A stretch of DNA of 56,795 nt from Gemmatimonadota bacterium (GTDB taxonomy: Bacteria; Latescibacterota; UBA2968; UBA8231). The notes under the pieces were generated by a model. It did not search any database, had not been told where the DNA came from, and saw only the letters and a program-made list of their open reading frames with translations. Location of the stretch: NCBI GenBank assembly GCA_002712305.1, contig PATE01000084.1, forward strand, positions 1-56,795. Reading direction: 5' to 3'. The position numbers were made by a program, and so were the translations under genes. Positions 5,398 through 37,071 of the stretch are shown here, in pieces. The stretch's first letter is position 1. Every line of letters begins with the position of its first letter.

Positions 5398-5597
5398 CTA
5401 CAGGAAGGGCATGCAGAGTTGCGGATCGATGAGCCGTAGCAGAAAATGCCCAACCCCGGAGGAGCCGCAGACCAATTCAGGCGAATACAGGCCCGGCTCG
5501 TTTGCTTGCCAACGCTCGCCATCGGCCGTGTCGTGTCGGTAGCTAGCAAACAGATCAACGAACTCGGGAAGCCGCTCGTCCCGCAAGTGTAAGAGGA
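5398..5597 (-). pseudogene. 3' remnant of a LanC-like lanthionine cyclase gene
   Basis: The last ~60 codons of a LanC-like protein are readable. The tail GLYSPELVCGSSGVGHFLLR is the final zinc-ligand/Gly-rich repeat of lanthionine synthetase C and LanC-like glutathione-binding proteins. No upstream half exists. The frame meets a TAA just upstream of 5597, exactly where base composition changes abruptly to AT-rich. The catalytic barrel (six of seven toroidal repeats) is missing, so the fragment cannot be active. It appears to be the trailing end of a gene whose body was replaced by the patch at 5599-5810. Confidence 0.6.
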
Positions 5598-5598
5598 C

Positions 5599-5810
5599 TT
5601 ATTCATTCCCCTCACACATCTCAATACACTCTCCATCTTTCCAAATGTCTTCGTCGGTTATGTTTCCATCCAAATCATACCAAACCAACTTACCTTCTTG
5701 TTTCCCATCCTTGTAGCATTCCTTCTTTTTTACCAAACCATTCTTGTAATACTCAACAAACCTACCATCTTGTTTATCATTCTTGTAGTTTCCTTCTATC
5801 CACCCTTGTC
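5599..5810 (-). other. AT-rich patch encoding MORN/YwqK-type repeats
   Basis: This stretch of about 210 bases is strikingly AT-rich compared with the GC-rich genes on both sides. On the minus strand it encodes two to three MORN-like repeats (GNYKNDKQDGRFVEYYKNG, then KDGKQEGKLVWYDLDG and DGECIEMCEGNE before TAA). Such repeats occur in YwqK-type proteins of AT-rich marine bacteria. No start codon of its own is visible. The frame opens inside the out-of-frame tail of the neighbouring PhyH gene. Codon use is Lys/Asn/Tyr-heavy with AAG, AAT and GGT/GGA. It looks like a foreign insert or a chimeric join. Confidence 0.6.
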
Positions 5811-6737
5811 GTCCCAACTCTTCACGCCGAGGAGCCTTTCTCCCAAGTCGGTCAGTGTCGCCGTCGGTCCGTTGCGTTTCTCCCATTGGCGAGGATCACC
5901 CAGAAATGCGTCGCGCTGCGGATGATCCTGCTCTCGCCAGAGACGAATCCGCTCCGCTCGTTCTGCCTCGTCGTGCCCTGCAGCCGGACTCATCGAGATG
6001 TACTGCGCCATGCGGACGCGATTCTTTGAGCGATTCGGTCGCACGCCGTGCGCGAGCAGACTGTTGAAGATGAGCAGGTCTCCCGCGTCCAGCTCCACGT
6101 GAATGGATTTGAGACCCCTTGTGTCTGGATGCGTGGGGTCACGATCGACGGGCTGAGATTCAGCCCATTTCTCCACATGGAACAACTCCGGTATACAGTG
6201 GAACCCCCCCACCGCTTCATCCTGCTTTGCCAGACTCAGAACACCCTGCACACCGATGGGCAGCGGTCGCAGTGAGGTGTCCACATCCCAGTGGATGAAA
6301 CCCTCCGAACCAGACGGTTCTCGTTCAGGCGGGTTGAGATTGGCACGATCGATGGTGACCCAGAGATCTTCGCGATCCCAGATGTCGACGAAGGCATCGT
6401 ACACATGTCTCTCCTGTCGATGGTCCCACAGATACTGATGATGATAGATCTCCAACATGCCCGTGTTGTTGAGTTCGAGCATTTTGTGCTCACGACGCTG
6501 CGGCGCATACCACGTGGCCGGATCACTCGGATCCTTCTCGTCGAAGGCCCATAGCAGGTTCACAAGACGGTCGACACTCGCAGATGGCACCGCCTGCCGC
6601 ACGATGACGTAACCCTTCGTGATCCAGTGGTCCCAGCCGGCCTCTGACAGAACACGCAGAGGCAGCGTCTTCTCGATGTCCTTCAGCTGTGTCTGACTCT
6701 GTGATGCTACAGGATGTGTGTGTTTCGGGTCGAGCAT
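5796..6737 (-). CDS. Phytanoyl-CoA dioxygenase (PhyH) family protein
   Basis: A non-haem Fe(II)/2-oxoglutarate oxygenase. The 2-His-1-Asp triad is His149-x-Asp151 (GFIHWDVDTSL) and His230, with the 2-oxoglutarate-binding arginine at Arg240 (HGVRPNRSKNR). At 313 residues it is full length. The C-terminus runs to LGERLLGVKSW, a natural end for this group, and the stop codon abuts the AT-rich patch. The substrate is unknown; PhyH paralogues in this type of organism hydroxylate diverse small molecules and are rarely true phytanoyl-CoA hydroxylases. It is transcribed away from the repeat-protein gene region upstream, with a 137-base gap. Confidence 0.87.
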   Translation of the reverse strand: MLDPKHTHPVASQSQTQLKDIEKTLPLRVLSEAGWDHWITKGYVIVRQAVPSASVDRLVNLLWAFDEKDPSDPATWYAPQRREHKMLELNNTGMLEIYHHQYLWDHRQERHVYDAFVDIWDREDLWVTIDRANLNPPEREPSGSEGFIHWDVDTSLRPLPIGVQGVLSLAKQDEAVGGFHCIPELFHVEKWAESQPVDRDPTHPDTRGLKSIHVELDAGDLLIFNSLLAHGVRPNRSKNRVRMAQYISMSPAAGHDEAERAERIRLWREQDHPQRDAFLGDPRQWEKRNGPTATLTDLGERLLGVKSWDDKGG

Positions 6738-6874
6738 GCTTTGTCTGGCAGGCAGTAGATCACGGTATCACGCAGGGATCCGGCGGCGCCCAATGTAACA
6801 CAGAAGGACCCCATCCAACCTGCTGGACAGGGCCCCCAGCAAGCAGCCAGTGCGATTGAGTTCGCGGTGAGGCC

Positions 6875-8056
6875 CTACTTCTCCTGGATCTCCGACTTGA
6901 TCTCGCCCCACGAACTCTCTTCAATGGCCGTGTTCGTCAGCCCCAGAACGGTAAGATCAACCGCTCCGCCTCCGTCCTGCCGGGCGCGGCGTACACGCGC
7001 AGCCAGAGCGTCCGCATCCCAGCCAGCACGTCGGATGGCCGCCTTCAACCCGTCAGACCACTGGTCCGGAGGTGTAGCCATCGCACGTGCAGCTACACCT
7101 TTCTGAAACTCGGTCAGCCCATCCCGGCGATCGCTGTCGCCGATGGCATCGTCTCGATCACGGTCGCCATCGTGATCTGCTCGATCTGTGTTCTGGCCCA
7201 GGGCAGCTGCCAGACGATCTCTAGCCGCCAGAAAACGTTCACGGGCCTGCTCGGCGGTGATCGCGCCGTCGTCCAATGCCGCCTGGATTTCCTGATTGAC
7301 CTTCTCGAAGGCGGCCATCAGACGCTCCCGCTCCTCCAGGCGTTGGCGGGCTGCCTCATAACGCTCGCGGCCCTGCTCGGCAGTGATCGTGCCCGCCGTC
7401 ACAGCGGCGCGAATCTCCTGACCGATCTGCTCCAGCGTCGTGGCAGGGTCTCGGTGATCTCGGAGATCGCCATCGTCATCATCGCCTGCGCCCTGATCAG
7501 CACCCTCTGCCAGCACCGCCTGACGCTGCCGCACACCGTCGGTGAAACGATCCAGGTCCCAGCCCGCCCGAACGATGGCATCCTTCAGTTCCTGTGACCA
7601 CTCTTCTGGAGGTGCAGCCATGGCGGCACCGATGACACGGCGTTGGAGCGTTGCCAGTCGATCATCGTCAGCTTCGTGTTCCGGCCGACTCGCTTGCTCT
7701 CGCTGGTAGTGGCGCACGCGCTCGGTAATTGCCTGCAGATCGTAGCCTGCCGTCTCGATCTGAGCCTTCTGCTCGTCGGTCCAGTCCTCCGGTGCCGTGT
7801 TCTTGATCGATTCCCAGTCGACGCCATCGTCTCTGGATTCGGAGTTGGCCTCAGCATGAGACACCTCTGTCGCGGTGACATCGGTCGTCGCGTCCCTGTC
7901 TTGAGCGACGCCAGACGACGGCAGCATCACAGTAAGGGCCAGCAGCCAGATGGTACCGGCCATGCAGGATCTGCGGGTCACGCGATACGCGCGATCGGAG
8001 AGGGTTGTTTGGATCCTTTGAGCTATATCGGATTCGATCCCAGAAGAGACATTCAT
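6875..8056 (-). CDS. Secreted/anchored protein with two alternating helical repeat types
   Basis: I do not recognise this 393-residue protein. A hydrophobic segment at about 32-51 (AGTIWLLALTVMLPSSGVAQ) ends in a signal-peptidase-like AxA/VAQ site and follows an unusually long n-region. Repeat A occurs three times (about 87-122, 147-182, 336-372): (T/P)PxxWSDxLKAAIxRAGWD, then ARVRxxRQ. Repeat B occurs twice (about 207-244 and 249-284): QEIxAAxxxGxITAEQxRERxxAAR. Acidic Asp-rich linkers separate them. The order is A-A-B-B-A. The ATG at 8056 has AAGG about 12 bases upstream and is preferred over GTG 8110. It is probably periplasmic or surface exposed. Repeat B resembles short helical hairpins that coordinate or scaffold, but no function can be assigned. 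Confidence 0.7.
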   Translation of the reverse strand: MNVSSGIESDIAQRIQTTLSDRAYRVTRRSCMAGTIWLLALTVMLPSSGVAQDRDATTDVTATEVSHAEANSESRDDGVDWESIKNTAPEDWTDEQKAQIETAGYDLQAITERVRHYQREQASRPEHEADDDRLATLQRRVIGAAMAAPPEEWSQELKDAIVRAGWDLDRFTDGVRQRQAVLAEGADQGAGDDDDGDLRDHRDPATTLEQIGQEIRAAVTAGTITAEQGRERYEAARQRLEERERLMAAFEKVNQEIQAALDDGAITAEQARERFLAARDRLAAALGQNTDRADHDGDRDRDDAIGDSDRRDGLTEFQKGVAARAMATPPDQWSDGLKAAIRRAGWDADALAARVRRARQDGGGAVDLTVLGLTNTAIEESSWGEIKSEIQEK

Positions 8057-8184
8057 GAGAACTCGACCTTGAGGTTTTGTTCGGCGTTGCCGGTTCGACG
8101 AGGCTCGCACGCCCGTATTGTCAACCGAAACTATCGGAATAGCAAGGCAAATATGGCTGAGGTTGACCCGACACGCCTTGCATT

Positions 8185-9729: not shown

Positions 9730-9732
9730 GCG

Positions 9733-10611: not shown

Positions 10612-11609
10612 GGTGGTGATCCTTTCGATTGCAGGGGTACACGGCTGAGAAGAAGATCCGCCGCGTCTTTTGCTTGGTGATCTCCCGCGAACTCGTGGGC
10701 GGCGCGATGATAGACAATCAGCATCTCATCGTCATCTCTCACGGCGGCCGGATAGGAGCTGTCATGATTGCCGGCCAGGGGGCCCAGCCGACAGTAGGGG
10801 TGGAGTTGGCCTTCGTCGTAGGTGTAGATGATCGTCGCCTGATGGAGGGACCTGCCGGCAAGATCGGCCCGCAGTGTGGCCGGTTCGGCCGTCGGCTCGT
10901 AGGCCAGAAGTCGACCCATCAGATAGGTCACTCCCTCGAACGTGTATACCGCATGCCCCGACAGATGCACACCTGCGGGGCGTTCGCTCCAACGGGTATA
11001 GGGTGGCTCGGACTCGAGGATTGCCCCGCCGAGGGTGACCTCCGATCGCAGGAAGGCCGTCAATTTTCCGTGAGGTCCAAAGAGCAAGGTCGTTTCGCTC
11101 TCTCCCTGGCCAGCTCGAATCGTTGAGATCTTCTCCCACGAGATCCCATCCTCTGATGTCACCAGGTGGGCCTCGCGATGCTCGGCGGGTCCGGGACGAT
11201 GGGCGGCGGCATAATAGCGCCCCTCATGGATGAGGGGTTTCCACAGGATGTAACCTGTCTCGTAGATGGGTTGTGGATTGCTCCAGCGAAGGCCGTCTTC
11301 TGTGAAGACCACAGAAACCTTAAAAACGCCGTCATTCAGACTGTTGATATAGAGAAGCAGACGCCCTTCGGTAGGTAACAGCTGGGCGTCGCGATCGTCG
11401 CCGGATACGTCCAGCGTAAGATTCGGCTCCCAGCGTTCCGTATCTGTAGATTGCTGTACGACCATATCGCCATCGCGCGCGATGTGGCCGGAGCCCCTGC
11501 GGAAGGCCAGCCAGTAGCGATCGCTCCACCGAACGAACGCGACGAAAGCATTGTGATGACCGTCGGCGACGATCTTCCGACAGCTCGAAGGTTCTACGGA
11601 AGTTTCCAT
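10608..11609 (-). CDS. Sialidase/BNR-like five-bladed propeller protein
   Basis: A 333-residue protein without a signal peptide. Asp-box-like repeats recur (STDTERWEPNLTLD, TEDGLRWSNPQP, TSEDGISWEKIS), each of the S/T-x-D-G-x-x-W type that marks sialidase/BNR propellers. The N-terminal HHNAFVAFVRWSDRYWLAFR resembles uncharacterised glycoside-related propellers. Catalytic Arg triad, Tyr and Glu residues typical of true neuraminidases cannot be identified with confidence, so activity on sialic acid is not claimed. Its end overlaps the PhyH start by 4 bases, placing it first in a three-gene operon with PhyH and GH29. Confidence 0.72.
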   Translation of the reverse strand: METSVEPSSCRKIVADGHHNAFVAFVRWSDRYWLAFRRGSGHIARDGDMVVQQSTDTERWEPNLTLDVSGDDRDAQLLPTEGRLLLYINSLNDGVFKVSVVFTEDGLRWSNPQPIYETGYILWKPLIHEGRYYAAAHRPGPAEHREAHLVTSEDGISWEKISTIRAGQGESETTLLFGPHGKLTAFLRSEVTLGGAILESEPPYTRWSERPAGVHLSGHAVYTFEGVTYLMGRLLAYEPTAEPATLRADLAGRSLHQATIIYTYDEGQLHPYCRLGPLAGNHDSSYPAAVRDDDEMLIVYHRAAHEFAGDHQAKDAADLLLSRVPLQSKGSPP

Positions 11610-11663
11610 GGCGTGTGAATCTGAGGCCTTTCGCTATGGATCCTGGCATCCGATGATCAGGGT

Positions 11664-12383
11664 ATGATGCGATTCAGAAACGATGAGTTCATCCGCACCC
11701 TCGACCCGGACATCTTCTCTCACGGCCGGCTCCTGCGACGTTTTCCCGGATCGGATGCGTGTCGATTCTCAGCCAAGGTCGCGCTGAATCTATTGGAAAG
11801 AGTCGACGACCGCCCGCGGGGGTCACGACCCAGAATTCTATGGGACCCCTTCTGTGGCGCGGGCATGATTCCTTGTGTGGCCCTGGCTGCCTTCCCTGGA
11901 AAGTTCGACGTCGTCGTCGCCTCAGACATCAACGGCGAGGCCGTCGCCTGTGCGCTCGGAAATCTGAACATCGTCTGTGATTCCGCAGCATTCGCTGCCC
12001 GGCGCGCCCAGATCCACAAAAGTCGGGGAATGAATCAGGGCATGGACCGACGGGGAGCGATCATCGAAGCCTACATGGCCGAGCTTGAGCCGATCCTGAT
12101 GACCAACCCGGCGACGGTCACGATCGGCGCCCTCAGGGGCGACGCTTTTCGTCTTCCTGCAGTCTCTGGCGACGTACATTTCGTGGCCGACCTTCCCCAT
12201 GAAAACCAGTCCCAGTTGCTCGGGGGCCCACTGTCTGAACTGCTGCCGTCACTGCGCAGCGCTTTCCCGGACGCCACGGCCACGTTTGTGACGACGAGAG
12301 ATGCCGTCGAGCAACTATGTCACTCAACCCCAGGCGTTCAACTCCGGGATCTTGCCCATGGACGGGTTGTGGTTCGCCTGTGA
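11664..12383 (+). CDS. AviRa-like rRNA methyltransferase
   Basis: A lone plus-strand gene between two minus-strand blocks. The SAM-binding motif reads LWDPFCGAGMIPCVALAAF at about 60-78, followed by VVASDINGEAVACALGNLNI (acidic loop), a layout typical of AviRa, the 23S rRNA G2535 methyltransferase. The catalytic motif is VADLPHENQSQLLG (about 172-185), in the place of DLPYGE in AviRa. The substitution of His for Tyr/Gly there means target and activity are uncertain. It could also be a general (D/N)PP(Y/W)-type RNA methyltransferase. ATG codons at 11664 and 11667 are both possible starts. Confidence 0.62.
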   Translation: MMRFRNDEFIRTLDPDIFSHGRLLRRFPGSDACRFSAKVALNLLERVDDRPRGSRPRILWDPFCGAGMIPCVALAAFPGKFDVVVASDINGEAVACALGNLNIVCDSAAFAARRAQIHKSRGMNQGMDRRGAIIEAYMAELEPILMTNPATVTIGALRGDAFRLPAVSGDVHFVADLPHENQSQLLGGPLSELLPSLRSAFPDATATFVTTRDAVEQLCHSTPGVQLRDLAHGRVVVRL

Positions 12384-12431
12384 TGGGCAACTCGCATCCG
12401 TCATTTCCTGCGGCGGAAACGACGTCTGCGG

Positions 12432-14009
12432 CTAGTCATCTGCAGACCCGATCGCGCGCCGAGCCCGATCCGTCATTTGTTCTGGTGACCATGCGGGATC
12501 GTGCACCAGTTGGATCTCGACCCGTCCAACGCCACCCAGACGAGCCTCGAACTGCTCCCTGATTCGATCCGAGAACCAATCGAACCAGGTTTCGCGTCCT
12601 GCGTAGGGCATGACCAGGTCGATCTGGACATCGTTGCCGTCGACGTGGACACGGCTGACGATGCCGATATCGATGAAACTGAGTTGCCGCTGCCCCCACG
12701 GAGACCCCTCCAGGTAGAGTTCGAACTCATTGGTGCCTCGCAGAGCGTCGAGGACGCTTTCGGTGGTGACCGCCTGAGGGATCTGTGTGAGTTCCACCTG
12801 TGTGAGCGGATTCAGCAGTCGTTGCTGACGCTCGACCAGTTCGGCGAAACCGCCGTGGTCGACATGTTCATCAAAGTGGTAGGCCACGTAGGCGTTCTTC
12901 TCATACACATGGTCGCCCGCCTGCATGTTCGCGTGATGCACGGGCGATCGAACCCACACACCGGTACGAGAAAATCCTGACCCATCGGGCTCCGTGAAGT
13001 TCGGGTTCGTGTTCTCAAACTCCAGATGGACACTGCCGAATCCTTCGCCCGTCTCGGGATTGAAGTATGACATCCAACCCGGGTCTGCCTTGTCCCAGCC
13101 CACGGCGCCGATTCCGATCTCCCCATCCGGCGCCATCCAGGCTCGTTCGGGCAGCTGCTCACCGATCACGAATTCGTCGTTGCGACAGTCGCGGAATCGC
13201 ACATCCTCGAACACATCGAGTTTGGATTCCATGATGACATAGGGTTGGCCTGCCCAGAAGGAGTACGTCACCGTCGCCATCACCTTATGGGGGCGGCCCA
13301 CCGTGGGCCCGAGTGACAGGATCGGATGCCCTCGACGCCGAAGACGCAGACACACGGGCCCGCGAATCACGTCATACTCGAACATCTGTGGACCATCCCA
13401 ACTGGTGATCCGATAACGACCCACGCGCTCCTCGCTCCAATCTGGTCCCCAGTGAATCGTGCCCTCCACACCATGGCCACCGCCACTGTCGAGCGTTGCC
13501 TCCCACCCCTTCGGAAAGTGGCACTTCCAGTTGCCGCTCAGGTGCGAAAGGGTCGCTCGGTAGTGGGCATTCTCGACTTCCAGCGGATAGTCCTCATCGC
13601 TGAAAGAGAGATCCGTGTCGTGGATAGGCGCGGGTGCATCGGGGTTGCCATAGAACACGACATAGGTGCGGGTCGAATCCCTCGGCACGCTGGCCAGAAA
13701 GAACAGACGACAGCGCAGAGTCGAATCCTCCTGGGCGACTAGATGGACCTGACTGGGAATTCCTTCGAGCCGTCCGCCCCCGCCGCTGGTGGCAGCTACG
13801 CGGACCTCGCGCTCCAGATCAGTGATGTGTCGGCCGTGGAAATCGACATCCACCTCGATCGGTTCCAGATGCCGATCAAGCTCGGTGGTATTGGACAGGA
13901 TGAGACGTTTGGCGAATTGCCAACCGGCCGGAGATTGCCACTCGGAAGGCAGATTGGCGGCGTGATCCCAGTCTTGAACTGGGATGTAGATCGAAGCGTC
14001 ACCGTGCAT
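12432..14009 (-). CDS. Large beta-rich protein fused to a divergent MIP18/DUF59 domain
   Basis: The ATG at 14009 is fixed by AAGGAG nine bases upstream, giving 526 residues; the longer frame to 14234 is ignored. Residues 1-~400 are beta-rich and unrecognised (VVFYGNPDAPAP, EVENAHYRATLSHLSGNWKC, FWAGQPYVIMESKLDVFEDV), resembling non-catalytic carbohydrate-active or DUF2341-like sandwiches. Residues ~415-524 match MIP18/DUF59 iron-sulfur assembly factors: VTTESVLDALRGTNEF, then GNDVQIDLVMPYAGRETWF and VEIQLVHDPAWSPEQMTD. The conserved Cys of the PGCP loop is absent (YAGRE), so iron-sulfur binding is unlikely. The gene overlaps the upstream TolB-like gene by 11 bases. Confidence 0.7.
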   Translation of the reverse strand: MHGDASIYIPVQDWDHAANLPSEWQSPAGWQFAKRLILSNTTELDRHLEPIEVDVDFHGRHITDLEREVRVAATSGGGGRLEGIPSQVHLVAQEDSTLRCRLFFLASVPRDSTRTYVVFYGNPDAPAPIHDTDLSFSDEDYPLEVENAHYRATLSHLSGNWKCHFPKGWEATLDSGGGHGVEGTIHWGPDWSEERVGRYRITSWDGPQMFEYDVIRGPVCLRLRRRGHPILSLGPTVGRPHKVMATVTYSFWAGQPYVIMESKLDVFEDVRFRDCRNDEFVIGEQLPERAWMAPDGEIGIGAVGWDKADPGWMSYFNPETGEGFGSVHLEFENTNPNFTEPDGSGFSRTGVWVRSPVHHANMQAGDHVYEKNAYVAYHFDEHVDHGGFAELVERQQRLLNPLTQVELTQIPQAVTTESVLDALRGTNEFELYLEGSPWGQRQLSFIDIGIVSRVHVDGNDVQIDLVMPYAGRETWFDWFSDRIREQFEARLGGVGRVEIQLVHDPAWSPEQMTDRARRAIGSADD

Positions 14010-14736
14010 GAATAGAAACTCCTTGTTGTGCGCGATGCGGGTTGGCGCACAGTGGTCTGTTACGAGGACAGTTCCGGCCCCCAGTGGCAGCGAATTCATC
14101 GGCGTGCTCGCCGGATAGATTGACCAAACCCGATCCGTCTGCGTTGATACGATGCAGTTGGAGCGTGTCACCAACGTGGGCCGTGAACACAAGCTGTGAT
14201 GCGTCCGGAGAGAACGACGCCTGCCAGGAGACAAACCCCTCCGGTGTCACCCTGCGCGCCTGGGTGCCATCTGCGCGCATGATATAGATCGCAGTCTCTC
14301 CGTCGCGCTGCGAAGTGCACGGAAGCCACTGACCATCGGGCGAGAACGCAGAATCATCGCCACCTGCGTCCGAGGCCTCGAGCGGTCGCTGATCCGATCC
14401 ATCACGCCCCATGGCGTGAATATCGGCCTGACCCGTACGATCGCTCGCAAAGAGAATCGTCTGCCCATCCCACGAAAAGTGAGGGCGCAGGTCGGGCAGA
14501 TCGTTTTCGGTGACCCGACTCAACGAATTGCCCTCGGGATCCATGAGATAGATCTCTCCCTTGCCGTGGCGGCGCGAACAGAAGGCGATCATCCCATCCG
14601 GTGACCAGGCTGGATGGTCTTCCTCCCAGTCGGGCGTCTGCGTGAGGTTGCGTCGATCCGAGCCATCGGGTCGCATCGTCCAGATATCCATCTCGCCCGC
14701 CGTGGTGCTAACGAAGACGATCCTCGATGAAGTCAT
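13999..14736 (-). CDS. TolB-like beta-propeller (WD40/PD40 repeat) protein, cytoplasmic
   Basis: About 245 residues with at least five PD40 repeats: MRPDGSDRRNLTQTPDWEED, AWSPDGMIAFCSRR, DIHAMGRDGSDQRPLEAS and SFSPDASQLVFTA. These build a TolB-like propeller. The ATG at 14736 is chosen because AGGAG lies six bases upstream, and it follows the LysE gene stop (14751) by 14 bases. No signal peptide is seen, so unlike TolB it probably stays in the cytoplasm. The reading frame continues past the last blade into a Gly/Arg/Pro-rich tail with no propeller pattern, which may be a frameshift into a missing blade. Function unknown; protein-protein interaction is likely. Confidence 0.7.
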   Translation of the reverse strand: MTSSRIVFVSTTAGEMDIWTMRPDGSDRRNLTQTPDWEEDHPAWSPDGMIAFCSRRHGKGEIYLMDPEGNSLSRVTENDLPDLRPHFSWDGQTILFASDRTGQADIHAMGRDGSDQRPLEASDAGGDDSAFSPDGQWLPCTSQRDGETAIYIMRADGTQARRVTPEGFVSWQASFSPDASQLVFTAHVGDTLQLHRINADGSGLVNLSGEHADEFAATGGRNCPRNRPLCANPHRAQQGVSIHAR

Positions 14737-14750
14737 CCTCTGCTCCTGGT

Positions 14751-15372
14751 TCATCTGCGGGAGAGCGCCGTGCTCAAACCCAATCGGATATAGACGACGC
14801 CACTGGCTACTTGCGGCAGGCGCCCCGCGGTCAGTCGTCCTGTGAACAGTCGCCTCAGACGACTCGCCAGAAGGACATAAACACTGTCCGTGACCAGCGC
14901 CAAACCCACGTAGAGCAGGCCGAGGAACATCACCTAGCTCGGACCGGGCCCTGGCTCGGATCGACGAACTGAGGCAGGAAGGCAAGGGACCGCGATCTTT
15001 GGATTGAGCACGCTCACAACCACGCCGTCGATAAAGAGTCGACGAAGCGAACGAGGCAATGGTGCGCCTACATCAGTGGTCTCGTCTCGAGCCAGAATGG
15101 CGCGAACACCCAGATAGATGAGATAACCGGCACCGAAGGTCTTGACGAATCCGAATGCCGTCGCCGACGTGAGCAGAATCGCCGAGAGTCCTGCCGTCGC
15201 GGCGCTGACGTGCACGAGGGCGCCCACCGACAGGCCGACGACGGACACAAGGCCGGCACGCTGCCCCTGTCCGAGACTGCGAGCGACCATGTAGCAGGAC
15301 ACTGGGTCCTGGAATCAGCAAGACCACGAGGGCCGCCGCCGCGAATCCCAACAGAAGCGTATCACCGGGCAT
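14751..15372 (-). pseudogene. LysE/RhtB-family amino-acid exporter with at least two frameshifts
   Basis: Pieces of a LysE-type exporter read in three frames. They run in order: MPGDTLLLGFAAAALVVLLI-PGPS (N-terminal helix), then YMVARSLGQGQRAGLVSVVG and FGAGYLIYLGVRAIL with VVSVLNPKIA, then LAFLPQFVDPSQG, then MFLGLLYVGLALVTDSVYVL to the stop at 14751. All family landmarks (PGPxxL, GAxYLxYLG, NPK, FLPQFV) are present, so the gene was whole until recently. An extra C sits near 15294 and another in the CCC run near 14990. A base is missing near 14940. The corrected protein would be about 205 residues and export amino acids or derivatives. It overlaps the amidase gene by 11 bases. Confidence 0.72.
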
Positions 15373-16813
15373 TGGATTCCCCTTCGCCTTCCACTTCGGG
15401 GTGTTTCATGTGCCACTTGGTGGCCTGCTCGAATACGTGCCCCGCCCGGCAGAGAATGCCCTCGCTGAGGGGCGGTCCGGCGAATTGCACGCTGAGAGGC
15501 ATGCCATCATCTGATGAGCCGCAGGGCAGGCACAAGGTTGGATAACCGTTGTAGTTCCAGATCTTTGTGAAGCACTCACTGGCCTCATACCACTCAAGGG
15601 GAATCCCGCAGGATGTGCCGCGCGCCTCGTCCAGGCCACCGTAGGCGTCGTTCGATTCGTAGCGAAAGGTCTCCGCCGCCACGGTAGGACACACGAGCAG
15701 ATCGATATGCTCGAAGACAGGCATCATCCGTTTCACCGCACGCTCGCGGGCCAGGTAGGCATCGGCCCTTTCGACGTCTGTGATCTTGTGCGCTTTGGTC
15801 AACAGCCCTCGAAAGTTCTCGCCATAGTCGCTAGCTCTTGATGGAAAGGTCTCTTGGTGGACGACGGCCGCTTCCGCCGACGCGATGGTCCGCCACGCGA
15901 CAGTCTCGTCGACGGTGGGAACGGCGACCTCGACGATCTCGGTGCCGGCATCGGACAACTCCTCGACCACCGATCGAACTGCCTTGAATACGTGTGGTGC
16001 TGCGCGGCCGGCATACTTCTCATCCCAGCCGATACGCAGTCCTGCCACGCCTTGATCGAGAGCGGCTTCGAAATCCACGTCTGCGGATCGAAGGGTCGTG
16101 GGATCGTCGTCGTCATAACCGGAGATCACGCTGAGCATTCGAGCGGCATCTCGCACCGTACGGGCCATCGGTCCCACGTGATCGAGGGTCGGCGCCAGAT
16201 CTAGCACCCCAGAACGACTCACACGTCCCCATGTGGGTTTCAGACCCACAATCCCGTTGGCAGACGAGGGGTATCGAATCGACCCGCCCGTATCGGTACC
16301 GAGCGAACCGAAGCAGAGCCCTGCTGCAGTCGCCACACCGGGACCACTGGAAGAGACCCCCGGCCAGCGATCGGTTGCCCATGGGTTGCGCGGGATCTCG
16401 AAATCGGGGTGATACCCCGCCATTGCGCCCTCGGTGGTGGCCAACTTGCCGAGAATGATCGCTCCCGAAGCCTGCAGTCGCTGGACGACGGTGGCATTCG
16501 ACTCGTCGATCAGATTCTTGCGAAAGCTGTGACCGCCCGTCGTCGCCGTGCCCCTCATCATGCACAGATCCTTGATGGCGATAGGCACGCCGTGCAGGGG
16601 GCCGAGTTCCTCACCCCGATCTCTGGCCACGTCTGCAGCACGAGCTTCCTGCTGAGCTCGCTCGGCCGTAACCTCAGTGAAGGCGTGAAGGTGCGGCTCG
16701 AGTCGTTCGATGCGAGCTACCAAGTGCCCCGTCACACCGACCGAGTCGAGGTTCCCACTGGCGATTCGCACAGCGACATCACACAGACTGGCATAGTGAA
16801 GATCTACCGTCAT
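15362..16813 (-). CDS. Amidase of the amidase-signature (GatA-like) family
   Basis: A serine amidase that hydrolyses carboxamides through a Ser-cis-Ser-Lys triad. Lys81 lies in GVPIAIKDL, the cis-Ser in GVSSSGPG (154-156), and the nucleophile Ser178 in GTDTGGSIR. The intact 483 residues cover the full family length. It is a stand-alone paralogue rather than GatA, since no gatB/gatC genes are adjacent. It overlaps the LysE-type exporter, which suggests release and export of an amino compound. Substrate unknown. Confidence 0.9.
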   Translation of the reverse strand: MTVDLHYASLCDVAVRIASGNLDSVGVTGHLVARIERLEPHLHAFTEVTAERAQQEARAADVARDRGEELGPLHGVPIAIKDLCMMRGTATTGGHSFRKNLIDESNATVVQRLQASGAIILGKLATTEGAMAGYHPDFEIPRNPWATDRWPGVSSSGPGVATAAGLCFGSLGTDTGGSIRYPSSANGIVGLKPTWGRVSRSGVLDLAPTLDHVGPMARTVRDAARMLSVISGYDDDDPTTLRSADVDFEAALDQGVAGLRIGWDEKYAGRAAPHVFKAVRSVVEELSDAGTEIVEVAVPTVDETVAWRTIASAEAAVVHQETFPSRASDYGENFRGLLTKAHKITDVERADAYLARERAVKRMMPVFEHIDLLVCPTVAAETFRYESNDAYGGLDEARGTSCGIPLEWYEASECFTKIWNYNGYPTLCLPCGSSDDGMPLSVQFAGPPLSEGILCRAGHVFEQATKWHMKHPEVEGEGESNAR

Positions 16814-16853
16814 ATGGCCAACGCTGGATGGCGAGGAGGCTTGTCTTCGATGA

Positions 16854-17396
16854 TCAGGCCAACTCTTCGATCTGATCGGGCTCGGGCATTTCCTCGAACT
16901 GAACTGCGAGGATCGTCTTGCGTCCGTCGAGCAGGGCTCGAGCTAGCCTGTGTCCTCCGTCCATGAGGCGGCCATTGGCATTGATGATCACAGGCAGGGT
17001 CGTGTCTACCTCGTTGATCCGTCGACAGTGGCCTGCGACCTGCCGGATCGTCGGTGCGGGATCCCCCCGAAACCAGCAGTCCACATCGAGTTCGTCGAAC
17101 CCTTCCACGTCACAGGTCGGCTCGACCAGCGCCTCGGCGAAGCTGACGATCGGCTCCATGTCGGAGAGAGACAGATTCGCTGCGCTCGTCTCGAACATAC
17201 GCGGGTGCAATTGAATCTGACTGCCCCCTGTACGTGGTGGCTCATCTCGCAACACATCATTAAGATCCTCGCGCAGTGTAGCCACCGTCTCCGCCGGCAA
17301 TACCCCCTCCAGAAACAGATACCCCCGCCGGTGGAACTGCTCCACCCAATCCTCAATCTGTTCCGCTGAGGCCACCTCGTGCGCCCGAACCGTCAT
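16854..17396 (-). CDS. Chimera: PhyH N-terminus joined to a ParB/sulfiredoxin-like C-terminus
   Basis: Residues 1-~93 are a normal PhyH start (QFHRRGYLFLEGVLPAETVA, then IQLHPRMFETSAANLSLSDM). PhyH then breaks off before its iron-binding core. From about residue 97 the protein reads as a ParB-nuclease-like family, DVDCWFRGDPAPTIRQVAGH, then LMDGGHRLARALLDGRKTI, where GGHRxxxA is the nucleotide-binding loop. No relative is expected to have this half-and-half architecture, and a PhyH lacking its His-x-Asp cannot bind iron. The start ATG 17396 has GGGAG seven bases upstream. The junction lies near 17110-17120. It is either a novel fusion or a deletion that removed the PhyH 3' part and the ParB gene's 5' part. 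Confidence 0.6.
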   Translation of the reverse strand: MTVRAHEVASAEQIEDWVEQFHRRGYLFLEGVLPAETVATLREDLNDVLRDEPPRTGGSQIQLHPRMFETSAANLSLSDMEPIVSFAEALVEPTCDVEGFDELDVDCWFRGDPAPTIRQVAGHCRRINEVDTTLPVIINANGRLMDGGHRLARALLDGRKTILAVQFEEMPEPDQIEELA

Positions 17397-17869
17397 GACG
17401 AGCTCCCGTTGATTGCAGACCACAGAAATCCGCGTACTCACTGAACGAGTAAATCAGCCTGTGCAGATCCTCGTCGTCAAAGGAAAGACGCGGCCTCAAA
17501 GACGTGTGCCCGACTGTCTCGCCGACCGCCAAATGTCCGGTCCCCCTCCTTTCAGTTCCCCTCTCACAGAGAAAGAGGAGTCAGCGCCGCCCTTTGGGTT
17601 CGGCGAGGGAAAGGAGGGCGATTCACGTCGCACTCAATTCCCAGACAGAAAGTCGCGCACCCAGGACTCGACGAAGTCGAGGCCGGCCAATCTGGAGAAC
17701 CACCACCCGGTAGTGATTCAGCGCCCGAACCCCAAGACGTGCGCCCGACGCCCGCGCCGAACCCAAGGGGGGCAGCCCCACTCCCACCTCACACCCTTGG
17801 CGTCCATCGCCCCCCTGCCCCATCTTACTCGCCACTCGATTCAGGGCCCCAAAACCGAAGGCACGACTC
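17397..17869. other. 473-base divergent intergenic region with a 10-bp inverted repeat
   Basis: No convincing gene is visible in either direction. The two flanking genes diverge, so both promoters should lie here. The arms CCCTCCTTTC (17544-17553) and GAAAGGAGGG (17609-17618) are a perfect 10-bp inverted repeat. Between them lie a CTCTCACAGAGAAAGAGG purine/pyrimidine stretch and a possible small hairpin (GCCGCCC-TTT-GGG-TTCGGC). The remaining sequence is Pro/Arg-coding-like GC-rich DNA with no frame supported by conservation. The inverted repeat could be an operator or a transcript structure. Confidence 0.45.
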
Positions 17870-19597: not shown

Positions 19598-19626
19598 TTG
19601 TTCTCCTTGCCGATGGGCAAAAGGTT

Positions 19627-19645: not shown

Positions 19646-19666
19646 CACTTCCCCAGAGGAACCCTT

Positions 19667-19915
19667 ATGGAAATCATCAATGTTCACGAGGCGAAGACCC
19701 ACCTCTCGCGTCTCCTGCAGCGAGTCGAAGCGGGCGAGGAAATCGTCATCGGTCGGGCAGGACAACCGGCGGCGAGGTTGGTACCCTACGAATCGAAGCG
19801 CGAGAAACGACGGGGAGGGCAGTGGAAGGGCAAGGTCTGGATCTCACCGGACTTCGACTCTCCGGATCCCGAGTTGGAAAAGCTGTTCCATGACGGGGAC
19901 ATCTTCCCAAGATGA
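19667..19915 (+). CDS. Phd/YefM-family antitoxin
   Basis: An 82-residue antitoxin whose N-terminal domain reads MEIINVHEAKTHLSRLLQRV, then EAGEEIVIGRAGQPAARLVP, the standard Phd/YefM dimerising DNA-binding fold. The C-terminal tail (DSPDPELEKLFHDGDIFP) is the usual acidic segment that wraps and blocks the PIN toxin. It overlaps the toxin start by 4 bases (ATGA), so they are translationally coupled. An imperfect palindrome lies just upstream for autoregulation. Vap-type naming is avoided because the antitoxin is Phd-type, not AbrB. Confidence 0.92.
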   Translation: MEIINVHEAKTHLSRLLQRVEAGEEIVIGRAGQPAARLVPYESKREKRRGGQWKGKVWISPDFDSPDPELEKLFHDGDIFPR

Positions 19916-20292
19916 ATGGTTTGCTCCTGGATACCCACGTGGCGATCTGGTGGTTCGAGGAATCTGCCCGGTTGTCCCATGACGTACGCGTCACGATCGA
20001 GGAGGGGACCTTCGATGTGTTCGTCAGTGCTGCGACTGCATGGGAAATCGTGATCAAGTCGGCAAAGGGACATCTCAAGACACCGGACGACTTTGAGGAG
20101 ACCGCTGTGGACGCCGGTTTCAGATTCCTGTCGATGACTGTTCCACACGCTTTGGCAATACGCGACCTCGAGCGCCATCACAATGACCCCTTCGATCGCA
20201 TGCTCGTTGCCCAGGCCCGCGTAGAGGGCCTGACACTTGTAACCAACGACCCCTGGATTCAGCGTTACGACGTGTCGGTGATGGCCGCGTAG
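19912..20292 (+). CDS. PIN-domain ribonuclease toxin
   Basis: A 126-residue PIN toxin that probably cleaves tRNA or rRNA with Mg2+. The acidic metal site is readable: LLLDTHVAIWW carries the first Asp (residue 7), ATAWEIVIK the conserved Glu, and HHNDPFDRMLVAQA plus TLVTNDPWI the remaining Asp residues. Intact length matches the family. Its start overlaps the Phd antitoxin by 4 bases, and it ends 6 bases before the FG-GAP gene. A second, less similar pair is at 43591-44239. Confidence 0.93.
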   Translation: MNGLLLDTHVAIWWFEESARLSHDVRVTIEEGTFDVFVSAATAWEIVIKSAKGHLKTPDDFEETAVDAGFRFLSMTVPHALAIRDLERHHNDPFDRMLVAQARVEGLTLVTNDPWIQRYDVSVMAA

Positions 20293-20298
20293 TCGGTT

Positions 20299-24202: not shown

Positions 24203-24208
24203 GGCAAG

Positions 24209-26041: not shown

Positions 26042-26063
26042 GTCTCGATCGCAAAGACACACC

Positions 26064-26125
26064 TGCCGCAGGATGCGGCACTTGGAGGGTCACTCCCTGT
26101 AGAAGCGAGCGCAGCGAGCTTCTAC
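26064..26125 (+). terminator. Tandem hairpins after the 610-residue gene
   Basis: TGCCGCA-GGA-TGCGGCA (26064-26080) is a perfect 7-bp hairpin with a 3-base loop, starting 23 bases after the stop codon. A second hairpin pairs GTAGAAGC (26099-26106) with GCTTCTAC (26118-26125) around an 11-base loop. Neither is followed by a clear T-run, so they may be processing or convergent-transcription barriers rather than classic intrinsic terminators. The convergent gene on the other strand ends at 26142, so the same elements could terminate both. Confidence 0.5.
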
Positions 26126-26141
26126 AAACGACAGGATGTCG

Positions 26142-26666
26142 TCATGTGATAGGCAGCTCCTCGACCACTGCTCGCACACCCATCAGATCGTAACGCCCCA
26201 TCATCTGCTGCAGGTGAACGGCCAGAGCGTGCTGCTCATCGCCGGTCTCGGCGAGTTGGCCGATGAGGGCATTCATATCGGTGATCGAGTGATGCCGAGC
26301 GGCTTATAGCAGAGCCACCCGCAGCGTTTCGGGAATTGCCGTTGCCGTCAGGTCGGTACCATCTCCTTCTTCCGCAACGTCATCTGCCAGATCGAAGGCA
26401 ACGCCAAGTTGGTGTCCAATGGTGGCATAGAGCTGCTCGGCTCGCACAGGCTTGAGCAGGAAGGCAGAGAACCCCTCGTCCAGATCGGCGTAGAGCCCGG
26501 AGGCGGAGATCGTCTCGGGCACATCCCCATTCACCAGATCGATGAGGAGGCTCGTGTTCGGCACGCGGGTTTCGATACCCACGGGAGATTGTGCGCGGAG
26601 CGTGCCAGAGGTGAGGATCAGGCAGAAACAGAGAGTTCGTAGTGAGATGATTCGTCGCGTTCGCAT
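26142..26666 (-). pseudogene. Chimeric remnant: secreted cytochrome-like 5' end joined to response-regulator 3' end, with an internal stop
   Basis: From 26666 a signal peptide (LRTLCFCLILTSGTLRAQ) leads into VPNTSLLIDLVNGDVPETIS-ASGLYADL, a segment typical of secreted SO2930-like/c-type cytochrome-related proteins. At ADL the text changes to DEGFSAFLLKPVRAEQLYAT, the end of a response-regulator receiver with the conserved Lys-Pro, and a hybrid-kinase C-terminal linker. The frame stops at TAA (26304-26306). The same frame continues with AARHHSITDMNALIGQLAET to TGA at 26142-26144, so the stop is most simply a Glu codon changed to TAA. Both an internal junction and a nonsense change mark it as dead. 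Confidence 0.65.
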
Positions 26667-26790
26667 CTATGATCGAGGCTACGCGTCGATGTAGACATCG
26701 TCAACCGGGACAAAGCTGGCGCAGGACGCGGCTCTTGGAATACTACTGGCAGAGAATGCGCAGCATTCTCAAATGCACAGGAAGTTGCCC

Positions 26791-27819
26791 TCAGTGCCAG
26801 GCGGCGGCCCAACCTGACGTGTGCACATCCGAGCGGATTCGCCAGTCCCGCAGCTCGTCGAGCAGTTCCTGCTTCTTGGTCGCAGCTGCCGGATCGTGCC
26901 AGAGATTGTGGGTCTCAGCAGAGTCGGCGACCAGATCGAAGAGCTGGCCGTCGGGCCAATCGACGAAATGCACCAGTTTCCACTGTTCAGCACGAACCAT
27001 GGTCATGAAATCCGTCTCCTGCAGGATTCCATCGCGCCCGTGTTCGGCAAAGACAACCTCTCGCGGCGTCCACGCCTCGCCGTTCAAGGCAGGCAACAGC
27101 AACTCGGCCTCCATCGTCGGCGCCACATCGACACCGGCCAGTTCGAGAAGGGCGGGGCCGATGTCCATCTGCTGACACAACCCTGCAACCCGCCGATCAC
27201 CCTGGAAGCGGCCCGGCGACGAGACGATGAGAGGCATGTTCGTGATCGTGTCATACATCGTCCACTTCCGCGAGTGACCATGGTCGGTGAGACAGTCACC
27301 GTGGTCGGAGGTGAAGATGACGACGGCATTGTCGAGGTATCCCTTCTCCTCAAGCGCGTCGAGAATCTCCCCCACCTTCTTGTCGATCATCTCCACGTTC
27401 GCCATGTAGTGGGCACGCTGTCGATGTCGCTGCTCATCGGTGGGGTCGAGCAGATGCACCACCGAATCGTGATCGACTTCCGCATTGTGCACCCTCATCC
27501 GTTTGTAGACCTCAGGCTGGGAGTCCAGCTCTTGCGGGGTCACGTCCTGGAGGGGCAGATCGCGCTCCATGTACTTCTGCGCCATCTCTGGTGTCGGGTC
27601 GTATGGCGGATGGGGTCCGGGGAAGCCGATCTCGAGAAACAGCGGACGTTCCTCGTCTTTCGGCTTGGTGCGAATCCAGTGCGTCGCCATGTCGCCGACG
27701 AAGACGTCTGGATGAGTGTCCTCGGGCAGGTCCCATGTGAAGGCACCGAGGGCACGGATCGTGTCGAAACGCTGCTGATCGGTGATGATGAAGATGATGT
27801 GAGGTCGATCGCCAGCCAT
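26791..27819 (-). CDS. Sulfatase-family protein lacking its catalytic CxPSR core
   Basis: The C-terminal ~315 residues are a standard type I sulfatase (FLEIGFPGPHPPYDPTPEMA, VVIFTSDHGDCLTDHGHSRK, GPALLELAGV). The first 25 residues (HIIFIITDQQRFDTIRALG) are its first strand, with the metal Asp. The roughly 150 residues between, which in the family carry the formylglycine cysteine motif C-x-P-S-R and the metal-binding pocket, are missing. The strand runs from IRALG directly into AFTWDLPEDTHPDVF. The frame is open across the join. As written it cannot form formylglycine and should be inactive. The deletion could be real or an assembly collapse. Confidence 0.8.
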   Translation of the reverse strand: MAGDRPHIIFIITDQQRFDTIRALGAFTWDLPEDTHPDVFVGDMATHWIRTKPKDEERPLFLEIGFPGPHPPYDPTPEMAQKYMERDLPLQDVTPQELDSQPEVYKRMRVHNAEVDHDSVVHLLDPTDEQRHRQRAHYMANVEMIDKKVGEILDALEEKGYLDNAVVIFTSDHGDCLTDHGHSRKWTMYDTITNMPLIVSSPGRFQGDRRVAGLCQQMDIGPALLELAGVDVAPTMEAELLLPALNGEAWTPREVVFAEHGRDGILQETDFMTMVRAEQWKLVHFVDWPDGQLFDLVADSAETHNLWHDPAAATKKQELLDELRDWRIRSDVHTSGWAAAWH

Positions 27820-27823
27820 CTGG

Positions 27824-28903: not shown

Positions 28904-28906
28904 GCG

Positions 28907-29797: not shown

Positions 29798-30207
29798 GGT
29801 CGTCGGCTTTCGGCTGGAGGGAAGTCAGATTTGCTCGCACATGGTGGTCACTGACAGCTTTTGTGTCAATGTGGGGAGATGGAAAGCGCAGTGGACAGGA
29901 CCGAAGACGTTGTGCATATCCATGACTCTGGCTCCCTGAGTGGGTAGGCGTTGATGTCTGCCCGTCCTGTTGCAAGGGTGGTGCCACGATCCATGCAGCA
30001 CTTCAAGAATGTGTCGCAAGTAATTGTTTTTGCTTCTCCTACGAAACACTTCATGTGACCGCCCCATCACCGACGGTATCACCTGGATACACCCGGATCG
30101 TATCGATCGGATACATCGCCACACTGGAAATCCTATACTTCGCAAATCCAGATGCTTCGCATTGAGTAGATGGCATCCGAACCACGGGAACAGAGGAGGA
30201 GGTGGGC
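29798..30207. other. 410-base divergent intergenic region with promoter elements
   Basis: No gene is supported here. The region lies between the divergent RraA-like and M42 peptidase genes. It holds two tandem GTATC-N5-GATAC dyads (30076-30114) and a TATACT hexamer at 30134-30139. The 29820-29960 stretch on either strand codes only frames without conservation. The GGAGGA ribosome site for the peptidase ATG is at 30195-30200. Confidence 0.45.
30076..30139 (+). promoter_or_regulatory. Tandem GTATC-N5-GATAC dyads overlapping a promoter for the M42 peptidase gene
   Basis: GTATC-acctg-GATAC (30076-30090) and GTATC-gatcg-GATAC (30100-30114) are two copies of the same 15-bp dyad, with starts 24 bases apart. 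A TATACT box follows at 30134-30139, one mismatch from the -10 consensus. The second dyad covers the place where a -35 element would lie. This arrangement suits repression, but the binding protein is unknown. Confidence 0.5.
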
Positions 30208-31275: not shown

Positions 31276-31315
31276 CGCGACCGTTGGGTGGGCGGCTGCC
31301 GCGGGTAGGACGAGC

Positions 31316-32317: not shown

Positions 32318-32371
32318 ATAGGTGACTCTGCGGAGGAATCTGGTTCGGTCTGACCAGTCAACAGTGAATGA

Positions 32372-33109: not shown

Positions 33110-33112
33110 CGG

Positions 33113-33757: not shown

Positions 33758-33823
33758 GGTTCGACTCCTTAACGAGTGATATTTGCTCACTGCAAGCCGC
33801 AGCGATCGGTTCTGAGTTTCATG

Positions 33824-34096
33824 TCAAATGAATGAATCGTCCGCATCTCCACGGACGATGGTGATCTGCCCCTGTTCTTCCAGTTGCCGCACGAGCTGCA
33901 CGATACGCAACTGAACTTCCTCGACTTCTCTCAGCCTCATAGGGCCAAGGAAGTTCCGGTGACCGATTGCTCAGCATAGGTCAGAGCATCTTCCAACGGA
34001 GATCTTCGCTCTGCCCAATTCGACGGTCATTGTCAGGCCGACCTCTTGGGACTCAGCGGTGAGCGTCTCTCTCTTTTCTGTCTTTGATGCCGACAT
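33824..34096 (-). pseudogene. Flagellar motor-switch remnant: FliN 5' end joined to FliG 3' end
   Basis: The ATG at 34096 is preceded by AGGAGG. It opens QEVGLTMTVELGRAKISV, the first strand of a SpoA/FliN domain, then goes out of frame; TGA at 33971-33973 ends it. The same frame resumes as FLGPMRLREVEEVQLRIVQL, then VRQLEEQGQITIVRGDADD, which is the C-terminal end of FliG. The middle of fliN and most of fliG are gone. A one-base shift between the two halves reads EDALTYAEQSVTG, continuing FliN. No other flagellar gene is in the window. It looks like a dead trace of a lost flagellar operon. Confidence 0.6.
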
Positions 34097-34126
34097 AGAA
34101 CCTCCTGATCGTGGCGCCGTGGGTGG

Positions 34127-34870: not shown

Positions 34871-34915
34871 CTGGGACTCCTTCGGTGGTGCTTTCGAGGT
34901 CTGTCGGAGCGAATC

Positions 34916-35740
34916 TTAGGAGGATGGGCCGGGGTCGGCCAGCTTTGAGGGGTCGTGGCGCTCTGGATATGCACGATGCACCGGCTTGTCGCCATGGCGA
35001 TCCTCGTCGCTGTCCAACGCTTCGGCATCGTAGCCAGAGCGGATGCCAACCACAGTGACCAGCTTCCCCGCGCCATCGACCGTGTAGTCCAATCTCCAGG
35101 TTCGATACGCGATGCTATAGGTGTCAGGCCCTGTCGAAGTGATCCGTTTGCGCTCGGCGTCAGTGGGGTCTGACATCAGCTGAACCCGGGCGAAATTTAC
35201 ACAGTCCAGACCACCGTGCTCCAGAATCCAAGCCGCATCTGTGGTCGCGTCCGGCGTGAAATCGATGTCGAATCGGGTCGAGATCACCTCGTCGAGCCAG
35301 CCCGAACCGGCCTCGGCAAAGGCATCCGCATACGGTACATAGGGCTTGAGATCCCACACCGGTGTGCGATCGAGCAGATCGTGGCCAGCCACAGTCAGTT
35401 GCAGACCGTCGATCGACAGCAGTCGCACGCAGCTGAGACCGATACGATTCGGCCGGTGAGGTGAACGGGTGGCGAACACACCTCGACGTGGTTCGCCCTC
35501 TCGAGGGGGCTGCACCCGGGGTTGCCAGCTCTCATTCAGGTGGAATTCGAAGATCACCCAGATGCGCTCGAAACCCTCCAGCCCATCGAGAGCACTTTCA
35601 AAGTCGCAACCATCACGCAGTTGGATGACGGCCTCGGTTTCGGGCAGCAGCACGCCCTGGCGCGGCGCTTCATACCGATAGCGCTGGGGACAGGAAACCC
35701 AGCCGATGGGCTCGAGGGTGCTCAGCGGTCCCCTAGGCAC
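34916..35740 (-). CDS. trmO: tRNA N6-threonylcarbamoyladenosine methyltransferase TrmO
   Basis: The TrmO (TsaA/YaeB) beta-barrel methylates N6 of the t6A modification at tRNA position 37 using SAM. Recognisable motifs are GWVSCPQRYRYEAPRQG, LEGFERIWVIFEFHLNE, GVFATRSPHRPNRIGLS (the conserved TRSPxRPNxIG signature) and GHDLLDRTPVWDLKPYVPYAD. The 274-residue length exceeds the usual 150-240 because of a C-terminal domain seen in the longer TrmO subfamily. It overlaps the desaturase gene by 8 bases. Confidence 0.92.
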   Translation of the reverse strand: MPRGPLSTLEPIGWVSCPQRYRYEAPRQGVLLPETEAVIQLRDGCDFESALDGLEGFERIWVIFEFHLNESWQPRVQPPREGEPRRGVFATRSPHRPNRIGLSCVRLLSIDGLQLTVAGHDLLDRTPVWDLKPYVPYADAFAEAGSGWLDEVISTRFDIDFTPDATTDAAWILEHGGLDCVNFARVQLMSDPTDAERKRITSTGPDTYSIAYRTWRLDYTVDGAGKLVTVVGIRSGYDAEALDSDEDRHGDKPVHRAYPERHDPSKLADPGPSS

Positions 35741-36764
35741 CTGCTGCCGCGGGCGAGGCGGCGGGCAATTCTGGAATGAACTCGTAGTCCGATTCGGTTT
35801 CCTGCCGCTTCATGATCGCGATGATCTCGCGCCACGTCGCCCAGAGACCCCTTGGTGACTCGGGCAATTCATGACGAATCATCCGATGCAGTCGGCCGAG
35901 ATTGTAACACGGCACGGCGGCATACATATGGTGCTCAATGTGATAGTTCATGTGCCAGTAAAGAAACTGCGTCAGCGGGCTGAGCAGGACAGTTCGTGTA
36001 CAGAGACGGAAATCGGGCACATCATCCTGTAGCCCCGTGTGCTGCGTGTGGTTGCACAGGAATCGCAGCCAGCCGCCGTAGAACGAGCCGAAGGTCGTGA
36101 GCACCGGTATGAGCCACAGCCCCAGATAGAGGCTGCCCGCCACGATCAGCGAATGCCCCACGAGGAGCAGCCTCGCCCAGTTCGCCAATACGCGCCGCCT
36201 TTCAGGTTCATTAGCCGGAAACAGGTGCGACTCCCACTCCCCCTCAACTCGACCCAGCGCATGAAGGACCGTCTTACGCAACGTGGCGTAGAAAACACGT
36301 GGGTCGAGCACGGTGACGCGAAGAAAATCTGCCAGGGTTAGCCGGCGTGGCAGCGTGACTTCGAGATCATCGGGGGCGTGCAGCGTGTATTTGTGATGCT
36401 CTGCGTGACTGGCCCAGAACATGTGATGATTGCGCCACACAAAGAAACAGAATACGCGGGTGAAGAAGCGGTTGAGCCACCGGGTTCGGAAGACGGTGCC
36501 GTGAGTCAGTTCGTGGGTGGCGTTGAAGAGGAAGACGTAAACCGTGCCGTGCAGAAACAATACGGGCAGCAGTAGCGCGGCCTGATCCCGGACAAACCAC
36601 GCCGCCGTCGCCGTCAGAGCGATCAGACTCAGGTGGGCAAGGATCTGCAGCGCCGCCTTGAAATCGCTGCATTGGTTGAGGGACCTCAGTTCCTCTCGGG
36701 GAATGGAAGTGCGATACCAGTGGATGGTCCGTGATGCTGTGTCGGGTGCGGTTTGCTCTTCCAT
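35733..36764 (-). CDS. Membrane fatty-acid desaturase
   Basis: A 343-residue integral membrane di-iron desaturase. The His boxes are HELTH at 84-88, SHAEHHKYT (about 119-126) and NYHIEHHMYAAVPCYNL near 270-280. Two hydrophobic segments precede the first box (LAHLSLIALTATAAWF, ALLLPVLFLHGTVYVF). Compatible with acyl-CoA or acyl-lipid desaturases and related beta-carotene hydroxylases. The C-terminal Ala-rich tail overlaps TrmO. Target fatty acid is unknown. Confidence 0.92.
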   Translation of the reverse strand: MEEQTAPDTASRTIHWYRTSIPREELRSLNQCSDFKAALQILAHLSLIALTATAAWFVRDQAALLLPVLFLHGTVYVFLFNATHELTHGTVFRTRWLNRFFTRVFCFFVWRNHHMFWASHAEHHKYTLHAPDDLEVTLPRRLTLADFLRVTVLDPRVFYATLRKTVLHALGRVEGEWESHLFPANEPERRRVLANWARLLLVGHSLIVAGSLYLGLWLIPVLTTFGSFYGGWLRFLCNHTQHTGLQDDVPDFRLCTRTVLLSPLTQFLYWHMNYHIEHHMYAAVPCYNLGRLHRMIRHELPESPRGLWATWREIIAIMKRQETESDYEFIPELPAASPAAAGA

Positions 36765-36882
36765 ATCTCGGATCAGTCGAGGTCAGGTTCCTGTTTGATC
36801 GTTGCCCATCCACGTGGTGAGATGGCCGTATCGGTGGGCGGCAGTGCGAAACAGTAATAGAGCCCATCGCCTCCAGTATTCC

Positions 36883-37071
36883 TCAAATCGCTCTGGCTGC
36901 AGCCACGCGATGCGTGGGCGGAATTCCAGGACGTCGGATTGGCGCCGCCGCCGGTTCGATCGTGATGGCCCACTTGAGATCCAGCGCGTCCGTGCCGATC
37001 CACTCGTTGCCATTGCGGCCGAGGTAATCGTAGCGGAAGGTGTCGCTTACCAGGACGATGATGTTCATCAT
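36883..37071 (-). pseudogene. 5' remnant of a sulfatase gene joined to unrelated sequence
   Basis: The first ~30 codons, MMNIIVLVSDTFRYDYLG, then NGNEWIGTDALD, are the first strand and metal-binding Asp of a sulfatase of the SDTFRxDxLG type. The expected next part (nucleophile loop CxPSR) is absent and the frame carries on as LKWAITIEPAAAPIR to a stop. A neighbouring frame (36783-36960) contains EFRPRIAWLQPERFEEYWRR-W, an ordered but unrecognised segment that may be the tail of a different gene. It lies 7 bases upstream of the dipeptidase stop. The gene appears truncated by a deletion-type junction near 36980. Confidence 0.55.

Follow-up and report, generated by a model that had tools for sequence, protein, structure and literature searches.

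Neither genome erosion nor the loss of DNA between short repeats is new. Among spontaneous Salmonella deletions, 19 of 30 carried matches of 6 to 15 bp at their endpoints, and 11 of 30 carried matches of at most 4 bp (PMC3386194). In Escherichia coli, DNA between short direct repeats is lost without RecA (PMC5426353), and the genome of Burkholderia mallei, which is smaller than that of the relative it derives from, is still being reduced, with differences between strains (PMC2877748). Here, we analyzed six scars at which parts of genes are joined in a 56,795-nucleotide contig (PATE01000084.1, assembly GCA_002712305.1) of an uncultured bacterium assigned to the Latescibacterota; this whole stretch is referred to as the window. 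Judging from the assembled sequence, the scars are very probably genuine chromosomal deletions in a lineage whose genome is still eroding through RecA-independent deletion at short repeats.

The scars resemble the Salmonella deletions, which span kilobases, have endpoints that mostly share 6 to 15 bp, with a minority sharing at most 4 bp, and were read as RecA-independent; the spectrum of match lengths found here is similar (PMC3386194). However, the Salmonella deletions were laboratory events of 2 to 67 kb in a culturable enteric bacterium, whereas those described here are natural, mostly of 0.2 to 5 kb, and come from an uncultured lineage. The route studied in E. coli also appears applicable, although that work relied on a single island or plasmid model, while many dispersed sites in one genome are involved here (PMC5426353). 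As in B. mallei, a smaller genome stands beside that of a larger relative, and loss still differs between strains. In contrast to B. mallei, in which the insertion sequences (IS) IS407A or ISBma2 are associated with almost all large deletions (PMC2877748), the clean joins reported here carry no IS, and no DDE_Tnp_1 transposase was found. A literature search that does not cover most subscription journals turned up nothing relevant on genome reduction in Latescibacterota. What is new is the setting: an uncultured, apparently marine bacterium in which such loss occurs naturally, decayed intermediates are seen, and one deletion distinguishes two strains.

Results

The window is the entire contig C3 of a 4.77-Mb draft genome (G000; 146 contigs, 90.9% complete). 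We compared it with a same-genus relative, a 7.1-Mb draft (G001), whose contig C15 runs collinear with the full length of the window, in segments that share 68 to 84% DNA identity. At the scars the alignment stops abruptly: almost nothing of the G000 side drops out of it, and hundreds to thousands of bases are missing. GenBank record JABJJN010000076.1 (isolate SI074_bin69, labelled Gemmatimonadetes) corresponds to G001 C15, and further close records carry the label Latescibacterota. From record names only, we take the isolate prefix SI to stand for Saanich Inlet and the group to be marine.

Six-frame reading of the gap regions revealed all six joins proposed by the first-pass annotation at their expected positions, and its gene names held up, mostly through intact relatives. 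Its proposal that an interior had been deleted at every scar was borne out in part. Relative to G001, three scars are clean deletions (~4.4 kb, 408 bp and 3.0 kb), and the sixth lies at a net loss of 5.7 kb. In contrast, the first two (LanC/MORN and PhyH/ParB) are not simple deletions by this comparison: the joins are real but lie within DNA that has been rearranged. Comparison with a related genome, as the annotation had suggested, showed that the LanC, cytochrome-like, hybrid-kinase/REC, sulfatase, FliN and FliM-FliN-FliG genes are all whole in G001. Because the genes truncated on both sides of a join are whole in G001, the direction of change is loss in G000. Gain of DNA by G001, with G000 keeping the ancestral arrangement, would agree with the larger size of G001 and with the gaps that run the other way. 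Nevertheless, the G000 joins cut genes that are whole and family-full-length in G001, one of them removes the interior of a sulfatase together with its active-site motif, and an insertion would not yield two truncated, decayed genes. Thus, we consider such gain extremely unlikely.

Subsequently, we evaluated the sequences shared at the breakpoints. We compared 890 kb of G000 stretches with 1.5 Mb of G001, of which 233 kb aligned collinearly, and scored as tight any deletion with at most 60 bp between the flanks in one genome and at least 150 bp missing from that genome. For microhomology, overlaps of high-scoring segment pairs were measured at 12 distinct joins whose flanks lie no more than 5 bp apart, giving 9, 10, 5, 8, 9, 11, 1, 0, -1, -4, 3 and -1 bp. 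Six of the 12 tight joins thus show microhomology of 5 to 11 bp. Overlaps of at least 8 bp, the short direct repeats that the annotation had suggested looking for, occurred at 5 of 12 joins as compared to 4.3% of joins simulated at the same divergence (P = 9e-5; Mann-Whitney P = 0.006). In local alignments, the shared letters are directly visible at three window scars.

Next, we examined the gene remnants beside the tight joins. These stumps carried 14 frameshifts and stops in 1875 codons, while length-matched pieces of intact genes carried 23 in 28541 codons, a ninefold difference (Poisson P = 9e-10, an approximate value because the control pieces resample 51 genes). Eight of the nine frame-breaking insertions or deletions in the stumps are losses on the G000 side (1, 10, 11 and 109 bp), and this small-scale deletion bias matches the large-scale one. 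The proportions of nonsynonymous and synonymous differences (pN/pS) were 0.10/0.54 in stumps versus 0.086/0.55 in intact genes. Because the two are so close, most of the divergence predates the deletions, which are recent relative to the split from G001.

Further evidence came from two other G000 contigs, C58 and C133, whose ends overlap over 3078 bp at 99.38% identity (17 substitutions and a 2-base gap) and which probably derive from sister strains. Two scars (~740 and ~220 bp) are common to both. Only in C133 is a stretch of 199 bp missing between perfect 10-bp GACGAAGGGC repeats, located at C58 28857 and 29056, and the undeleted C58 form is collinear with G001 at this site. Own-genome searches of G000 detected neither a second copy of the window region giving the same kind of support nor a sister copy of C133:20001-40000. 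Elsewhere in G000, C16:10746-15534 and C67:11415-16203 are 99.85% identical over 4789 bp and then diverge abruptly at CACGGTGACC; this appears to be a second strain-level structural variant, of unspecified kind.

The first-pass annotation had offered systematic assembly collapse as one of two ways to produce the scars. Either collapse or chimeric joining during assembly would be in keeping with the 146 contigs of the draft, some of which are mosaic relative to G001, and with a window block (10612-17790) that combines pieces from five G001 places. However, the matches at the joins (0 to 11 bp) fall far under assembler k-mers, and matches this short cannot mislead a k-mer assembler. Moreover, joining intact genes would leave clean frames instead of decayed stumps, the losses occur in collinear order with both flanks retained, and the sister-strain contigs carry the same scars while differing by one at a 10-bp repeat. 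Given the short matches, the decayed stumps and the sister-strain scars, assembly collapse is very unlikely. The other way, genome reduction through short repeats, is favored by the microhomology, stump decay and shared scars, together with the occurrence of the pattern on several contigs.

We also considered whether IS or other mobile elements no longer present had mediated the deletions, as pathogens at an early stage of host restriction, B. mallei for example, usually lose DNA in this way (PMC2877748). We found no element sequence between the flanks at the three clean joins that were read directly. Furthermore, the shared matches are of a length that fits RecA-independent deletion, the strain-differing deletion lies between plain 10-bp repeats, and DDE_Tnp_1, the one transposase family searched for, has no member in G000 or G001. 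IS-mediated loss therefore seems very improbable.

We also weighed whether the fused open reading frames (ORFs) might be selected new fusion genes rather than wreckage. Three joins leave an ORF open (16854-17441, 26304-26666 and 26791-27819), and that of the shortened sulfatase is intact over 320 codons. Yet about one third of joins are expected to be in frame. The fused cytochrome/kinase ORF ends at 26304, where a new in-frame stop interrupts the REC/HPt part, and the FliN part is frameshifted. The sulfatase junction (27742-27751; 408 bp missing, 10-bp overlap) removes the CAPSR active-site motif, and the Pfam match of the remainder begins at profile position 149 of 301. Elsewhere in G000, joins fuse oppositely oriented genes. 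Thus, selected fusion genes are a highly improbable explanation. Nor was in-frame joining accepted as a sign of function, as its frequency is near chance expectation. The fusions of oppositely oriented genes also show that the co-orientation noted for the six scars is not a rule; in-frame, co-oriented joins catch the eye, which explains why only these had been noticed.

The pattern extends to several G000 contigs. Over the 233 kb, 17 rows of tight deletions were found in G000, corresponding to 15 distinct events when the C58/C133 overlap is counted once, as compared to 6 in G001. Loss is uneven, with C133 keeping about one half of the span covered by its G001 counterpart. G000 C4:1-80000 is fully collinear with G001 C50 and, unlike C3, C133 and C7, has no large deletion. 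In G000 C9:1-20000, adjacent pieces, mostly of 0.4 to 1.5 kb, match the distant G001 contigs C20, C95, C73 and C44, reflecting either strong scrambling of gene order or a doubtful contig.

The features of the window are listed in Table 1. Pfam scans of its main ORFs showed mostly ordinary, intact genes around the scars. A seventh loss (~7.6 kb) had been missed by the first-pass annotation because it left no fused ORF.

Table 1. Remnants, junctions and losses in the window, with their counterparts in G001 (aa, amino acids).
Feature	Position	Strand	Remarks
C-terminal LanC-like stump, last 60 residues	5401..5598	-	83% identical to intact 387-aa LanC of G001 C15
AT-rich MORN_2 repeat stump, between PhyH and LanC stump	5602..5798	-	Weak PF07661 match
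Fused ORF, PhyH-like N terminus and ParB-like C terminus	16854..17441	-	Weak PhyH Pfam match
Stump, hybrid-kinase REC end and HPt-like tail	26130..26474	-	G001 C15:168126-169853, 575 aa with REC domain
Fused ORF, signal peptide/cytochrome-like start and hybrid-kinase REC end	26304..26666	-	
Deletion junction, ~4.4 kb missing relative to G001	26475..26483	-	9-bp alignment overlap
Stump, first ~63 codons of cytochrome-like gene	26484..26666	-	G001 C15:164919-166334, 471 aa
Sulfatase, in-frame loss of 136 codons	26791..27819	-	342 aa versus 478 aa in G001 C15:163448-164884
Loss of ~7.6 kb relative to G001	29870..30204	unstranded	Reg_prop histidine kinase, sigma-54 response regulator and small ORFs in G001
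Stump, last ~44 codons of FliM-FliN-FliG gene	33824..33951	-	G001 C15:147422-150196
Deletion junction, ~3.0 kb missing, FliN front to FliG tail	33952..33956	-	
Stump, start of FliN-like gene, +1 frameshift relative to G001	33957..34105	-	Outer end approximate
Sulfatase N-terminal fragment, ~30 residues	36970..37078	-	Beside 5.7-kb net loss

At the first scar (5401-5798), the LanC tail adjoins the MORN_2 fragment, and G001 has the LanC body where G000 has the PhyH gene. The LanC of G001 C15 is near full length for PF05147, while a PF05147 search of the whole of G000 gave no match because the stump is too short. Relatives of the MORN_2 stump were found at G000 C8:36-230 and on G001 C73.

The PhyH/ParB ORF sits in the block that is rearranged relative to G001. 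Its ParB-like tail (the C-terminal ~100 amino acids) is 69% identical to G001 C91:14645-14950; the ParB label is a reading of the sequence, with no Pfam match. Pieces of this block match G001 C29 near 20, 103 and 279 kb, C44 near 18 kb and C91 near 14.7 kb, and a LysE-like ORF within it (14934-15302) is cut short. Outside the block, at 19667-20292, a pair consisting of a Phd-type antitoxin and a PIN-domain toxin lies between IlvD and an FG-GAP gene, where G001 has only 6 bp.

The FliM-FliN-FliG gene of G001 is a single 924-aa ORF with FliM, FliMN_C, FliG_N, FliG_M and FliG_C domains. The three flagellar switch proteins are thus fused in this gene, and immediately upstream lies a separate FliN-like gene.

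At the sixth scar, ~100 bp including a sulfatase start (36978-37078) stands in place of 5.7 kb of G001 that encodes a DUF6785 protein, a minus-strand ORF and an MFS transporter. The sulfatase join that the annotation had described here was confirmed. A search of the available G001 sequence found no source for the sulfatase piece in the segment missing at this scar.

Discussion

Several points weigh against reading the scars as ongoing short-repeat erosion. The support comes from assembled contigs and not from sequencing reads. G001, whose draft has an estimated contamination of 8%, is the sole close relative, and at ~77% DNA identity it places the breakpoints with a precision of a few bases. 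The sister-strain test covers the scars of C58 and C133, not the window's own, and the decay test relies on resampled control genes. Six gaps run the opposite way, with the sequence absent from G001, and the 80-kb contig C4 is without such deletions, so that loss is uneven. DDE_Tnp_1 transposases were absent from both G000 and G001, but other transposase families were not searched.

In the mechanism that we propose, DNA between two short matches (~5 to 11 bp, sometimes 0 to 3 bp) is lost, and the truncated ends of two genes, or two remaining portions of the same gene, become fused. As suggested by match length only, the route may be RecA-independent, by replication slippage or annealing, or by end joining at microhomology, the last perhaps for joins with little or no match. 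The deletion persists where the loss is not strongly selected against, and the stumps later collect frameshifts and stop codons. Ku is encoded in both genomes; in G001 LigD lies beside it, while in G000 Ku is at a contig start and LigD was not seen at that place. For the longer matches, annealing or slippage is a better fit than classical end joining. We infer this enzymatic route, and likewise that relaxed selection, a small population or altered repair is the cause and that the deletions drive the difference in genome size.

More broadly, it is possible, and put forward here tentatively, that this is a marine, perhaps free-living lineage in early, active and IS-free erosion, in which new short-repeat deletions still differ between strains and loss is concentrated in some regions, leaving an 80-kb contig untouched.

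With the scars very probably genuine deletions, FliN/FliG, the sulfatase, LanC and the hybrid kinase should be regarded as truly broken in the organism, so no functions should be credited from their stumps and the gene fusions in the window should not be taken as new proteins. The lineage offers a case of natural genome shrinkage by short-repeat deletion with no IS at the joins, in which polymorphism between strains makes the rate and cause of the loss testable from existing metagenomes.

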